DNA of 64,000 nt, taken from assembly GCF_014236795.1 (NCBI RefSeq), contig NZ_CP049017.1:3760001-3824000 (forward strand), read 5' to 3'. The DNA comes from Xanthomonas theicola. Its GTDB lineage: Bacteria > Pseudomonadota > Gammaproteobacteria > Xanthomonadales > Xanthomonadaceae. The position numbers and the translations under genes were made by a program. This document shows positions 17,194 to 22,410 of this stretch, in pieces; position 1 is the first letter of the stretch; the number at the start of each line of letters is the position of its first letter. Below the pieces are notes generated by a model that made no database searches, was not told where the DNA came from, and saw nothing but the letters and a program-made list of their open reading frames with translations.

Positions 17194-18180
<987 letters not shown>

Positions 18181-18321
18181 GTTGCTTCGATATTGGTGCG
18201 GTGCTGGTGCATCCAAACTCCCGCTAAGTCCCTGTTTTTCACCCTCATTCCCGGGGTAATGTACCCGCACTGCACCAAGCAGATGGGGTTGCACCAGGTG
18301 GCTGATCGAGAAACGGGGGGA

Positions 18322-19320
18322 ATGAAGTGGCGCGCCATGGCGCGCATCAAGGGACATCCTACCGCCAAGACGTTCAACCAACGGTAAGAAAGCCGCGGAG
18401 GACTGGGCACGCCTCACGGAGAACGCCATTCGGGGCAGCACCGCGCCGCCACAGGAGAGCATGACGCTCTCGGCGCTGATCGACCGCTACGTGAAGGATC
18501 TGGGCAAGTTCCGCCCCATGTCTGCGACACGCGGGAACCTCAAGCGCTGCGAGGAATCGCTCGGCGAGCGTGAGGTGACGACCCTGACCGGCCAGGACAT
18601 TCTCACCCATATCGGCCAGCGCAAAGCCGGCCCGGCCACCGTGACAATCGAACTCGGCTTCTTGGACGAGGTGCTGGCGGCGGGCCGCTCCCTATGGAGC
18701 ATGACGATCCCGGACGTGGCGACTGCCACGCGGCCGGTGCTGCGCCGCGCCGGCGCCATCGCCAAACCCGTGAGCGCAACCGGTGGCCGTCGGCGAAGGA
18801 GCTGGACAACCTAGCCGCGTTCTTCCGATTCAACTTGGGCGCCATCCCGATGCGCGACCTGATCCCCTTTGCGATCGACTCGGCGATGCGCATGAGCGAG
18901 ATCGTCGCCCTACGGTGGGAGGACTACCGGCCGGGCGACAAGCCGACGATCCTGATCCGCGACCGCAAGGATCGGCAGGAGAAACGCGGGAACAACCAGT
19001 GGGTGCCGCTGCTGGGGCGCACGGTCGAGATCATCGAGCGCCAGGAGCGCGCGGGGCCGCTGATCTTTCCCTACAAGCCAGACAGCATCGGCGCTGCGTT
19101 TCGGCGTGCATGCACGCGCCTGCAGATCGCTGCAGATCGAGGATCTGCACTTCCACGACCTGCGGCACGAGGGTGCATCGCGGCTGTTCGAACAGGGCTA
19201 CGACATCCCGGAAGTCGCCATCGTCACCGGCCACCGCGACTGGAAGTCGCTCAAGCGCTACACGAACCTGGCGCCGGAATCGCTGTACCGGGAGCCGAAG
19301 GCCGGGCGACCCGGTTTAGA
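18322..19320 (+). pseudogene. Tyrosine recombinase (island integrase) with several frameshifts
   Basis: An integrase can be assembled from four frame segments. (1) ATG at 18322, MARIKGHPTAKTF. (2) From about 18385, KKAAEDWARLTENAIRGST and the SAM-like core-binding domain (SALIDRYVKDLGKFRPM). (3) From about 18775, KELDNLAAFFRF and the catalytic Arg region MRMSEIVALRWEDYRPG. (4) From 19129, LHFHDLRHEGASRLFEQG with His-x-x-Arg and the Tyr in GHRDWKSLKRYTNLAPE. The last break is caused by a 10-base tandem duplication (CTGCAGATCG at 19120-19129 and 19130-19139). Arg, His, Arg and Tyr are all still encoded. It is a dead integrase of the class that inserts at dusA. Confidence 0.85.
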
Positions 19321-19350
19321 CTTGGACCTCGACCAGGCCAGGGAGAGGGC

Positions 19351-19790
19351 CATGGGCCAGACCGGACAGGTAATCGCCGCGGCATGCAGCCTAGCCGTGC
19401 TGCTGCCGGCCGGGCATTTCGTCGTCGGCACCCACCTATGGGTGGCCACCGCCGCGCATCCGTTTCCCACGGCATCCCGGTTCCGGCGCTGCGCCGGCTC
19501 CGGCTATCCTCGCCCTGGCCTGGGCCGGCATCGTGCTGGTCGCCGGGCTCGGTACGGCCGACATGCTGGCGTGGGCGCCGGGTTCCTGGGGAGGCGCGGA
19601 CGAGGACGGCACCTACACCTCATTCGGCGCCGCCGCCGGATATCTCGCCGGCCTGGCGCTGGGGACAATGGTGTTCCTCTCGCTGCTGCGCCGCGCTGAG
19701 GCCAGCCCAGGCGGCCAGCGCCGGATTCGGCAGGCCGAGCTGCGCGACGCCGCCTCGGCGACGACCTGCTGCGCTTTGCGGATGAATGGT
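19351..19790 (+). pseudogene. Decayed small membrane protein of the island
   Basis: From an ATG at 19351 one frame gives AAACSLAVLLPAGHFVVGTH and LWVATAAHPFPTAS. From about 19490 another frame gives AILALAWAGIVLVAGLGTAD, WGGADEDGTYTSFGAAAG and GLALGTMVFLSLLRR. Together they look like one protein with three hydrophobic helices split by a frameshift near 19480-19500. I do not recognise the family. Part may belong to the 3' end of the integrase frame, which has no stop here. Confidence 0.35.
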
Positions 19791-19879
19791 GCGGCGGCGA
19801 CCTGTTCCATCGGTGGCGCGTTCCCGCCGCGCAGGTCCAGCATGAAATCGATGAAGTCGAGCGCCGCCTGACTCAGGTA

Positions 19880-20143
19880 TTGCGAGCGGGCGGTCGCTGC
19901 GTCATCAATCTGCGCCGCATCATCGAGCTGCCCGGCGAAGCGGACACGGTCTGGACCGACGTCATGACCCGGCGCTGCTACAAGCTGCCTGCCGAGATGA
20001 TGCCGCTGCTGGACCGGCTATCGGCAAGCGATCGGGGGGTCGACATGAAATGGTTGGCACGACACGACGAGACGCAACGATCGCGCATGCGGCGCCTCAT
20101 GTGCCAGCTGGCATCGCGCGAAGCGATTCGTTCTTGCGTATAG
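19880..20143 (+). CDS. RRE (PqqD)-like small protein, tentative
   Basis: 88 codons from a TTG, with the frame open upstream to 19700 but without another start. The informative part is LPGEADTVWTDVMTRRCYKL, PAEMMPLLDRLSASD, then SRMRRLMCQLASREAIRSC. This follows the PqqD/RiPP-recognition-element pattern: a beta-hairpin with an Asp and Thr before a Tyr-x-Leu, then three helices of a winged helix. RREs bind RiPP leader peptides. It lies 155 bases before a precursor-like peptide, which fits that role. The assignment is by pattern only. The start is uncertain, and the sequence before CVINLRR may derive from another decayed gene. Confidence 0.4.
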   Translation: MRAGGRCVINLRRIIELPGEADTVWTDVMTRRCYKLPAEMMPLLDRLSASDRGVDMKWLARHDETQRSRMRRLMCQLASREAIRSCV

Positions 20144-20236
20144 CTTGGGGCAGAGGCCTGGCGTGGATTATCGTGTTTGTTCGTCTCTGGTGCACGGGAT
20201 GAACAGTGTGCGTGGCAAGGAAGTGCATCAATCGTG

Positions 20237-20264
20237 GGAATGGAAACGCACTTCGATCCATTCC
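20237..20264. promoter_or_regulatory. Inverted repeat upstream of the precursor-like peptide
   Basis: GGAATGGA (20237-20244) and TCCATTCC (20257-20264) form a perfect 8-bp inverted repeat with a 12-base spacer, 35 bases before the ATG at 20299. It could be an operator or an mRNA hairpin. Confidence 0.45.
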
Positions 20265-20298
20265 TTTACATCTCAGTGCATAGAGTGGGAAAGTAGGC

Positions 20299-20436
20299 AT
20301 GAACAACAAAACGATCGAAAATACCGAGATTCTGCTGATCGACGAGTTCGAGATCATCGAGCTGGAAGATCGCCTGGAACTGGCCAGTCGCTGCAACGGT
20401 CGCTGTGATTCGGACAGCGAACTCACGGTGGGTTGA
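20299..20436 (+). CDS. Putative RiPP precursor peptide (45 aa)
   Basis: The peptide has an acidic, leader-like N-terminal two thirds (MNNKTIENTEILLIDEFEII then ELEDRLELAS) and a short distinct C-terminus (RCNGRCDSDSELTVG) with two Cys spaced C-x3-C. This charge split, the size and the position between an RRE-like protein and an M50-type peptide protease are what one expects of a ribosomally synthesised, modified peptide precursor. The ATG is preceded by a weak purine-rich stretch (GAGTGGGAAAG). No known RiPP class is recognised. Modification enzymes and transporters are not present in the window, so it is probably an orphan left after deletion. Confidence 0.5.
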   Translation: MNNKTIENTEILLIDEFEIIELEDRLELASRCNGRCDSDSELTVG

Positions 20437-20587
20437 TCGACGGACGACACTGAAAAACTGCGACGGGATCGGCGCCCACCTGACGTCTGTTCCGCCGCAG
20501 CCGTCAGCATATTTCTGCACTTCGCAGTCTGCTCGTGTCGATGCCGCTCGATCCGATCACGGTGCGGAGAACGCCAGGATAGACGCC

Positions 20588-21130
20588 ATGAACGACTCCT
20601 CTGCACTCTTCGCCAATCCGCTGCTGGAGGTCTCGGATTTCGATTCGGCTTCCGGCAGGCCGATGAAGCTGTGCGTCGTTCCCAGCGCGCGAGAACCTGT
20701 ACGGTTCGCGATTCCGTCCATCTACATGGAACTGGTAGGCGAGTTCGACGGAGCGCGCAGCCTCAATGAAGCCGTAGACGCGTTCTGCGAGCGCCACCCA
20801 GGCATCTACGCAAGGGATTGGTCATGTCGCCTGGTGCAGCAATCGCTGCTGCCCAAGGGCATTCTTGTGCATGCACAGCAGGATCCCGGGCGGGTAGCGG
20901 TCAGCGCGCAGCCGCGGCGCGCCTTCCTGTTCATCAAGTTGCCGATCATCAAGCCGGGCGTGGTCGATCCGGTCGCCGAGCGCCCGGGATTCATGTTCGC
21001 ACGGCCGGCACTGCTCCTTGGCCTGCTGCTGTTCATCGGCTCGCATGTGTACGTGGTCGCCGCGGACGGCAACAGCCCGCAACTGCTGAAGGCGCACGCC
21101 TTGCGTCCTGCACGCGCCCCCCATGCCTGA
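20588..21130 (+). pseudogene. N-terminal part of a PqqD-M50 peptide metalloprotease/exporter-like protein
   Basis: 181 codons from an ATG with AGGAT upstream. The first half resembles the PqqD-like N-terminal domain of YydH-type M50 proteins (PVRFAIPSIYMELVGEFDGA, RSLNEAVDAFCERHPGIY). Then comes LFIKLPIIKPGVVDPVAERP and the first membrane helix (ALLLGLLLFIGSHVYVVAA). Family members continue for several hundred residues with HExxH and further helices. Here the frame ends 20 residues after the first helix in unrelated sequence (LRPARAPHA). It is therefore a 3' deletion remnant that can no longer act as a protease. Confidence 0.55.
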
Positions 21131-21295
21131 GCGGGGTCGGCGACAGGCCGGTTCTTGGCTTGGACGATGCGATTGGAGAGACGGCAGCCGCGACGGGCAT
21201 TCCCTGTAGCGCCTGCCGCGGCCGCAGCGGCTCCTCGTATCTGCACAAATGTAGATGCCCGTGGAAAAAATGCTCCCGCCACCCGGACATGCCAT

Positions 21296-21776
21296 TCAAA
21301 GGCCCAGGTCGGACAATCCAGGATGATCGTCCGGCCGACGACCGGGCGGCCAGTGGAACTTGCGTTCGGACTCCTCGATCGGCAAGTCGTTGATGGACGA
21401 ATAGCGATCCACCATCAGACCGTCCGGGCCGAATTCCCAATTTTCGTTCCCATATGAGCGGAACCAGTTGCCCGAATCGTCGTGCCATTCGTATGCGTAG
21501 CGAACGGCGATACGGTGGTCGGTGAACGCCCACAACTCTTTATATCAAGCGATAGTCCAGTTCCTTCGCCCACTTGCGTTCGAGGAATGCGCGCGCCTCG
21601 TCGCGGCCATCGACGAACTCGGCGCGATTACGCCAGCGTGCATCCGGGCGATAGGCGAGCACCACCTTGGCCGGATCGCGGCTGTTCCAGCCGTCTTCGG
21701 CCAGGCGGACTTTCTCCAGGGCGGTTTGGCGGGTGAACGGCGGCAACGGCGGGCGTGATTCGATGGCGGACGACAT
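21296..21776 (-). pseudogene. DUF1348 (NTF2-like) protein, single-base frameshift
   Basis: The frame from the ATG at 21776 reads [20 protein letters not shown] and [18 protein letters not shown], then stops at TAA. The next frame resumes [20 protein letters not shown] and ends [20 protein letters not shown] and [11 protein letters not shown]. Together they give about 158 residues, the normal DUF1348 length. One extra T near 21541 (TTGATATAAAGAG instead of TTGATAAAGAG) accounts for the break. The family has an NTF2/SnoaL fold and no assigned reaction. It lies directly downstream of the TetR gene and was probably its target. Confidence 0.85.
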
Positions 21777-21786
21777 GACGGCGATC

Positions 21787-22386
21787 TCATGGTTTGGTGT
21801 CGAGAGAGGGCAGTCCCAGGAATCGACGGGCGGCATGCTTGGCACTGCCTGCGGCGTTGGCGCCGCCGAGGACCAGCACAACAGAGATTGCGCCGTCGAT
21901 CAGGATCAGGAATTGTTCTGCCAACTCGCTCGAATCCGGGTGGCCGGTGGCGGTGACGAGTTCGAGCAGGTAGTCGCGCAGGCAACGCTTGTGTCCGTGC
22001 GAAACCGCGCGAATGCGGCTGCCCGGGTCGCCGATCTCGCCAGCCGCATTCAGAAACGCACAGCCATGGAAGTCGCTGGATCCGAACCAATCGCGCAGCG
22101 CATCGAAACACGACAGCAGGCGTTCGACGGGATCGTCGCTCGCCGACGTGGCAGCGACGAACCACCGCATCCAACGCGCGTCGCGACGCAACAGCGCGGC
22201 CTCGACCAGGGCTTCCTTCGTCGAGTAATGGCGGTAGAGCGTCTTGCGAGCCACCCCAGACGCGTTGACGATCGCGTCCATGCCGGTGGCGTGGATGCCA
22301 CCCGCGTAGACGAGGCGCTCGGTCGCGTCGAGCAATGCCGATTGCGCAGGAGACAGATCGGATAACGTGACCATTGCGCAGGCCAT
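21787..22386 (-). CDS. TetR-family transcriptional regulator
   Basis: 199 residues. The N-terminal HTH is clear ([20 protein letters not shown], then [16 protein letters not shown]). The C-terminal ligand domain has [19 protein letters not shown], typical of the TetR_C group near DUF1348 and oxidoreductase genes. An ATG at 22374 is an alternative start. A perfect palindrome lies just upstream at 22393-22410. The gene ends 10 bases before the broken DUF1348 gene, so the regulator may have lost its purpose. Confidence 0.9.
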
Positions 22387-22392
22387 CCATTC

Positions 22393-22410
22393 GGAGAACG
22401 ATTGTTCTCC
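22393..22410. promoter_or_regulatory. Probable TetR autoregulatory operator
   Basis: Perfect inverted repeat GGAGAAC-GATT-GTTCTCC, 7 bases upstream of the TetR start codon. A partial half-site, GGACAATCG, follows at 22419-22427. The size and position fit a TetR-family operator. Confidence 0.7.

Follow-up and report, generated by a model that had tools for sequence, protein, structure and literature searches.

Enteropeptins, sactipeptides of the Enterococcus cecorum kgr cluster, are described as the products of a small precursor containing G-R-C, a radical S-adenosylmethionine (rSAM) maturase and an arginase of family PF00491 that acts on the arginine next to a cysteine (for the arginase KgrD see PMC12703449; for the mature peptide, M-K-G-Orn-C-P-P-S with an N-methylornithine and a Cys-ornithine thiomorpholine, see PMC12395415). 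Among ribosomally synthesized and post-translationally modified peptides (RiPPs), they offer the closest described logic for a locus of Xanthomonas theicola that we analysed within a 64,000-nucleotide stretch of its chromosome (hereafter the window). An initial annotation had read three consecutive plus-strand frames of the window as what is left of an unrecognised RiPP locus and had expected its intact relatives to define a new cluster type. Such relatives exist and are our main finding: homologues of the window peptide stand beside full-length M50 protease, rSAM and other modification genes in 7/7 relatives, and this enzyme set has not been seen together before. The window stretch is very probably a pseudogenised remnant of this undescribed cluster type, for which we infer a pathway leading from the rSAM enzyme to export. 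Among the matches listed from the open-licence literature (titles and abstract openings), there was no description of the cluster.

The reference locus (L024, around the M50 gene of genome G031) encodes an rSAM/SPASM protein (495 aa), an acyltransferase-fold protein (AT, 430 aa), the precursor, an M50 protein (431 aa), argA1, arg1, cup1, argA2, arg2 and cup2, followed by an HlyD-type adaptor and an ABC ATPase. Here arg denotes an arginase, argA a pseudo-arginase with a RiPP recognition element (RRE)-like domain and cup a JmjC-like cupin, and the three-gene cassette occurs twice. A profile of 32 AT homologues led to six genomes: Sphingomonas gei, Myxococcus vastator, two Luteibacter, a metagenome-assembled Erythrobacter and Fulvimonas soli. 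Using tblastn, we found one gene order, rSAM/SPASM, AT, precursor, M50, argA1-arg1-cup1, argA2-arg2-cup2, in 7/7 intact loci (L090–L092 duplicate the genomes of L030, L027 and L029 and were counted once); cup2 is present in 6/7 and went unmatched, within the stretch fetched, only in F. soli (L030). MacB-type permeases, HlyD or ABC genes adjoin L024–L028, the five loci in which flanking proteins were picked out by eye. In all seven loci a conserved small precursor lies beside modification enzymes, the general hallmark of a RiPP locus. Catalytic residues are kept in the intact loci: arg1 and arg2 retain all six metal ligands (7/7 loci each), and argA1 and argA2 have lost most of theirs. The four arginase-type proteins of L024 all match PF00491 only (E<=0.01), with no PF12640 match. 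Among the best 25 of 60 matches, the highest-scoring NCBIfam models for the rSAM protein were TIGR04463, Clo7bot, geopeptide and CefB, none of which reached its cut-off; it also scores against PapB, and its nearest solved structure is 5wgg.

How does this cluster compare with described systems? As in the enteropeptins, an rSAM enzyme and a PF00491 arginase accompany a core containing Arg-Cys. Unlike the enteropeptins, the new cluster has two R-C pairs in its core, the second as G-R-C, pairs each arginase with a pseudo-arginase that carries an RRE-like domain, and adds two cupins, the acyltransferase-fold protein and the M50 protein. We found no candidate for an Fe-S-dependent N-methyltransferase acting on ornithine: the ten L024 proteins include one rSAM and gave no methyltransferase match (for the rSAM, within the same best 25 matches). 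OspR-type peptide arginases (landornamide, FlmR/OhkR) likewise convert arginine to ornithine on a RiPP precursor, as we predict here, and the FlmE/OhkG model gives the rSAM a weak score (122 bits versus a cut-off of 500), but the arginases of the new cluster belong to PF00491 rather than PF12640 and are accompanied by degenerate partners. Biphenomycin clusters (bip/pbs) share the succession of an arginase and a JmjC/cupin ornithine hydroxylase, but their arginase comes from another family (UPF0489/PF12640), their precursor differs, and no MNIO or B12-dependent rSAM was found among the ten L024 proteins scanned. The metformin hydrolase MefH resembles the putative argA/arg pair in being a heteromeric ureohydrolase of which one subunit binds metal and the other is metal-free, but its substrate is a small molecule instead of a peptide. 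MefH is not known to carry an RRE-like domain. The selidamide maturase is GNAT-like, whereas the AT is modelled with an LpxM/PatA fold. Selidamides themselves are described as ornithine RiPPs in which fatty acyl groups are possible (PMC12703449). Finally, the M50 protein resembles the M50-type RiPP proteases of the daptide and YydH/LiaK systems. The initial annotation had assigned it to the YydH type, but the L024 protein stays far below both curated cut-offs (daptide M50 NF041824, 95 versus 300 bits; YydH-LiaK NF058609, 36 versus 225 bits), and its N-terminal domain is, by profile comparison, weakly related to the RRE-like domain of argA.

All three frames are present in the window (plus strand, 19880–20143, 20299–20436 and 20588–21130), each has homologues, and none of them is accidental (Table 1). 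Searched against Pfam and NCBIfam, the three proteins give no match at E<=1. The first had been taken as a PqqD/RRE-patterned protein starting at a TTG at 19880. However, the frame stays open upstream to 19700, bounded by an in-frame stop at 19697–19699, and carries homology from about 19754. Thus, it is the 3′ end of a longer gene: the RRE-like domain is retained as the likely C-terminus of an acyltransferase-fold protein, the small separate protein is not, and one modification gene, supposedly absent, is partly present. The AT profile (A1, a hidden Markov model, HMM) matched the fragment from 19736 on, at model positions 290–422 (E 2e-53). By tblastn the fragment aligns with the last ~130 residues of its homologues and is 51% identical to the G031 protein and 48–61% identical to the best 12 of the 88 AT proteins that matched. 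It groups in a tree near P0006, P0007 and P0008, with weak support. At least 89 AT homologues were found at E<=1e-10 (protein search, best 8000 candidates). When genomes were surveyed with A1, 7/398 matched in the order (the window genome, three with full-length and three with distant matches) and 1/398 in the phylum, the window genome alone.

The M50 gene, already recognised as truncated with its N-terminal domain and first membrane helix kept, is 59% identical over residues 1–158 to the intact 431-aa protein of G031. Homology ends there, upstream of HEFGH at 190, so that position 21130, where the frame stops, does not mark the limit of the gene; one database protein shares this fragment but has a different tail (206 aa). 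A family sample of 297 genomes gave, besides the window genome, one strong match (G031, 59% identity), and no other copy was found in a genus sample of 20 genomes, window genome included. Searches of 72,556 plasmid and 50,697 phage records with the 180-aa fragment gave no relative. In 5.8 billion proteins it retrieved only its own near-copy, because full-length relatives lay outside the length limits of that search.

Table 1. Features of the remnant and its surroundings (window coordinates).
Feature	Position	Strand	Basis
AT gene, 3′ third (acyltransferase-fold protein with putative C-terminal RRE-like domain); 5′ part gone	19736..20143	+	HMM, tblastn, AlphaFold model of intact relative
Precursor peptide, 45 aa, intact; leader LLIDEFEIIELEDRLEL, core RCNGRC	20299..20436	+	Homologues, codon comparison
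M50 gene, 5′ third (residues 1–158: N-terminal domain and first membrane helix); HExxH and remainder gone	20588..21061	+	tblastn
Unrelated read-through sequence after the M50 cut	21062..21130	+	Homology absent after residue 158
Species-specific low-G+C island harbouring the remnant; starts at the 5′ end of dusA (read by eye)	18160..22400	undefined	Synteny, G+C

The 45-residue peptide, proposed as a precursor, has 89 homologues (E<=0.01). Its core is exact in 88/89, the columns L-[LM]-[IV]-DEFEII-ELEDRLEL are fixed in those 88, and the residue after RCNGRC is D in 80 and N in 8. The L024 precursor, found separately, has V in place of the second I (EFEIVELED). The sole exception, P0160, keeps the leader and ends in SRCNINCEADVAAE; this variant, SRCNINC, lacks the second core arginine and would, if its cluster were known, offer a natural test of the idea, set out below, of one cassette per arginine. 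The precursor search requires shared 5-residue words, which favours conserved copies and would miss more divergent ones; the constancy is therefore that of the copies found, among which the family is nearly invariant. Over a 25-codon block, the window precursor differs from nine copies in seven other genomes by 6–11 synonymous and 1–2 non-synonymous codons. Because these copies were chosen with a pattern that fixed 20 of the 25 residues, the low non-synonymous count is partly built in; this does not apply to the synonymous changes, which are many. An indirect proxy for linkage to the AT gene (equal contig sizes) gave 32/89, or 22/44 where contigs were >=8 kb, and is supportive only. By tblastn, the enzymes of the other loci are 50–55% (AT) and 54–62% (M50) identical to those of L024.

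What would these enzymes make? The RRE-like domains, at the C-terminus of AT, at the N-termini of argA1 and argA2 and perhaps in M50, would hold the leader. The rSAM enzyme would build a thioether at each of the two core cysteines, most likely bonding it to the arginine just before it, after the pattern of enteropeptin (G-R-C). In each cassette, argA and arg would together form a heteromeric arginase, with argA as a leader-binding subunit devoid of an active site and arg as the catalytic one, and would convert one of the two core arginines to ornithine, that is, one cassette per core RC. The paired cupin/JmjC enzyme would hydroxylate this ornithine, turning arginine into hydroxy-ornithine overall. 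AT would probably place a fatty acyl group on an ornithine amine or on the new N-terminus, M50 would cleave off the leader, and a MacB/HlyD-type pump would export the product.

Two steps of this scheme have competing readings. In an AlphaFold model of an intact relative, AT has the LpxM/PatA acyltransferase fold, with a very high Z in structure search, and profile-profile comparison with PF03279 gave a probability of 89; at the sequence level, no credible Pfam or NCBIfam match was obtained, PF03279 matching in 0/32 AT proteins. Where an H-x4-E/D dyad is expected, AT has H-x4-R (H135 and R140), invariant across 32 aligned proteins, and its C-terminal domain appears RRE-like in the model. Profile comparison of this C-terminus with the M50 and argA N-domains showed no significant similarity (probability about 5–6; under 1 in another run); no PqqD entry is among the matches listed for the AT model and no RRE protein among those for argA1, where absence of a match excludes nothing. 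AT might thus be a degenerate fold that serves as a leader-binding scaffold, with a non-lipidated, ornithine-containing thioether peptide as the product. The altered dyad, the RRE-like domain and the missing Pfam matches are all as such a scaffold would predict, but we think it unlikely, given that the fold is intact, that H135 and R140 show the invariance of catalytic residues, and that AT and M50 occur as a minimal pair with precursors where the other modification genes went unmatched. The second competing reading concerns the thioethers. The rSAM could form ranthipeptide-type side-chain thioethers, to Asn or to the conserved Asp/Asn after the second Cys, instead of Arg C-alpha thiomorpholines. 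Its scores against the PapB, CefB and Clo7bot maturases and the D or N that follows RCNGRC in 88/88 copies make this a real possibility, to which we give somewhat less than an even chance: PapB substrates have C-x3-D spacing, which the core lacks, and each Cys directly follows an Arg in a cluster with a PF00491 arginase, as in enteropeptin.

In the window both AT and M50 are truncated. Thus, the locus is most probably non-functional, a pseudogenised cluster in which only the precursor is intact. A second fragment lies on the same chromosome, 327 kb away (G000:C1 about 4107550–4108396, corresponding to L106:9551–10397, minus strand). It consists of the argA1 3′ end (about 40%) and then the arg1 5′ part (59% to Sphingomonas), in native order; by eye, its neighbours read as putA and a proteasome-like gene. 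An inversion of ~327 kb that split the cluster would make the two fragments collinear and correctly ordered (window piece plus, second piece minus). Searches of the chromosome found no other AT and no credible other M50 N-part; the M50 C-part and cup1 were not found in the genome, in a search run without a positive control. A different rSAM (G000:C1:3254112–3255026; L031, L093), 37% identical and TIGR04463-related, may itself be a remnant. One further candidate in the same genome (L002, E 0.029) was rejected because the match runs antisense to a frame that reads, by eye, as thiE. Could the frames be accidents of G+C-rich DNA, or could the locus still work? Purely mechanical open reading frames are frequent in the window, yet the homologues, the common gene order and the codon pattern contradict chance, to which we attach practically no weight. 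A precursor that is still expressed and is acted on in trans by enzymes encoded at other sites of the genome would fit its fully conserved block and the presence of another rSAM. This is very improbable, however: AT, M50 and argA1/arg1 are all cut, the match of that distant rSAM ends before the SPASM cysteines, and the M50 C-part and cup1 went unfound in the search described.

The remnant sits in an island whose G+C is 0.52–0.67 versus 0.696 for the window. Gene order shared with five other species of the genus breaks off at its border, the 5′ end of the dusA-like gene, and 19/19 other genus genomes match only this end of the gene. The region looks like an insertion hot spot, and a phage-integrase fragment (weak PF00589 match) adjoins the remnant. 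Directly behind the cut M50 gene lies a ~50-bp dispersed repeat (21185–21235), which makes up nearly all listed matches of a 2.5-kb query that hit 18/20 genus genomes, the window's included, at E<=0.001. A DUF1348 frame (21296–21535, minus strand) covers only model positions 70–130 of 130 and is probably broken too.

Distant AT+M50 pairs in three genomes (G395, G501 and G332) have no match to the L024 rSAM or arginases within 12–17 kb, so that the acceptor of AT cannot always be ornithine. Beside such pairs lie small peptides with Cys/Gly-rich tails (four in L094, one each in L095 and L096) and ELE[DQ]R[IV]EF-like leaders, for example LDELEDRIEF or ITELEQRVEF. AT+M50 with an ELE[DQ]R[ILV]E-type leader may thus be the core of a precursor superfamily, with L094–L096 as minimal relatives. 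Our broadest reading is tentative: a RiPP class thinly spread over Gamma- and Alphaproteobacteria and Myxococcota would make one nearly constant acylated bis-thioether peptide, with two hydroxy-ornithines derived from RCNGRC, by means of two parallel peptide arginases, heteromeric and guided by RREs, that are each served by a hydroxylase of their own, together with an acyltransferase of LpxM/PatA fold fused to an RRE, all within the wider AT+M50 superfamily.

If true, RiPP chemistry would gain three enzyme concepts: (i) a peptide arginase composed of an active and a leader-binding inactive subunit; (ii) a lipid-acyltransferase fold fused to an RRE; and (iii) one tailoring cassette per core residue. 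The motif LLIDEFEIIELEDRLEL-x2-RCNGRC and the seven clusters provide a ready handle on this RiPP type. The constancy of the core (88/89 found), set against enzymes only 50–62% identical (AT, M50), suggests a conserved target or role rather than an arms-race bacteriocin. The product may be a metallophore or a signal, or it may address an essential target as darobactin does, and so constant a core makes its purpose testable in environmental bacteria.
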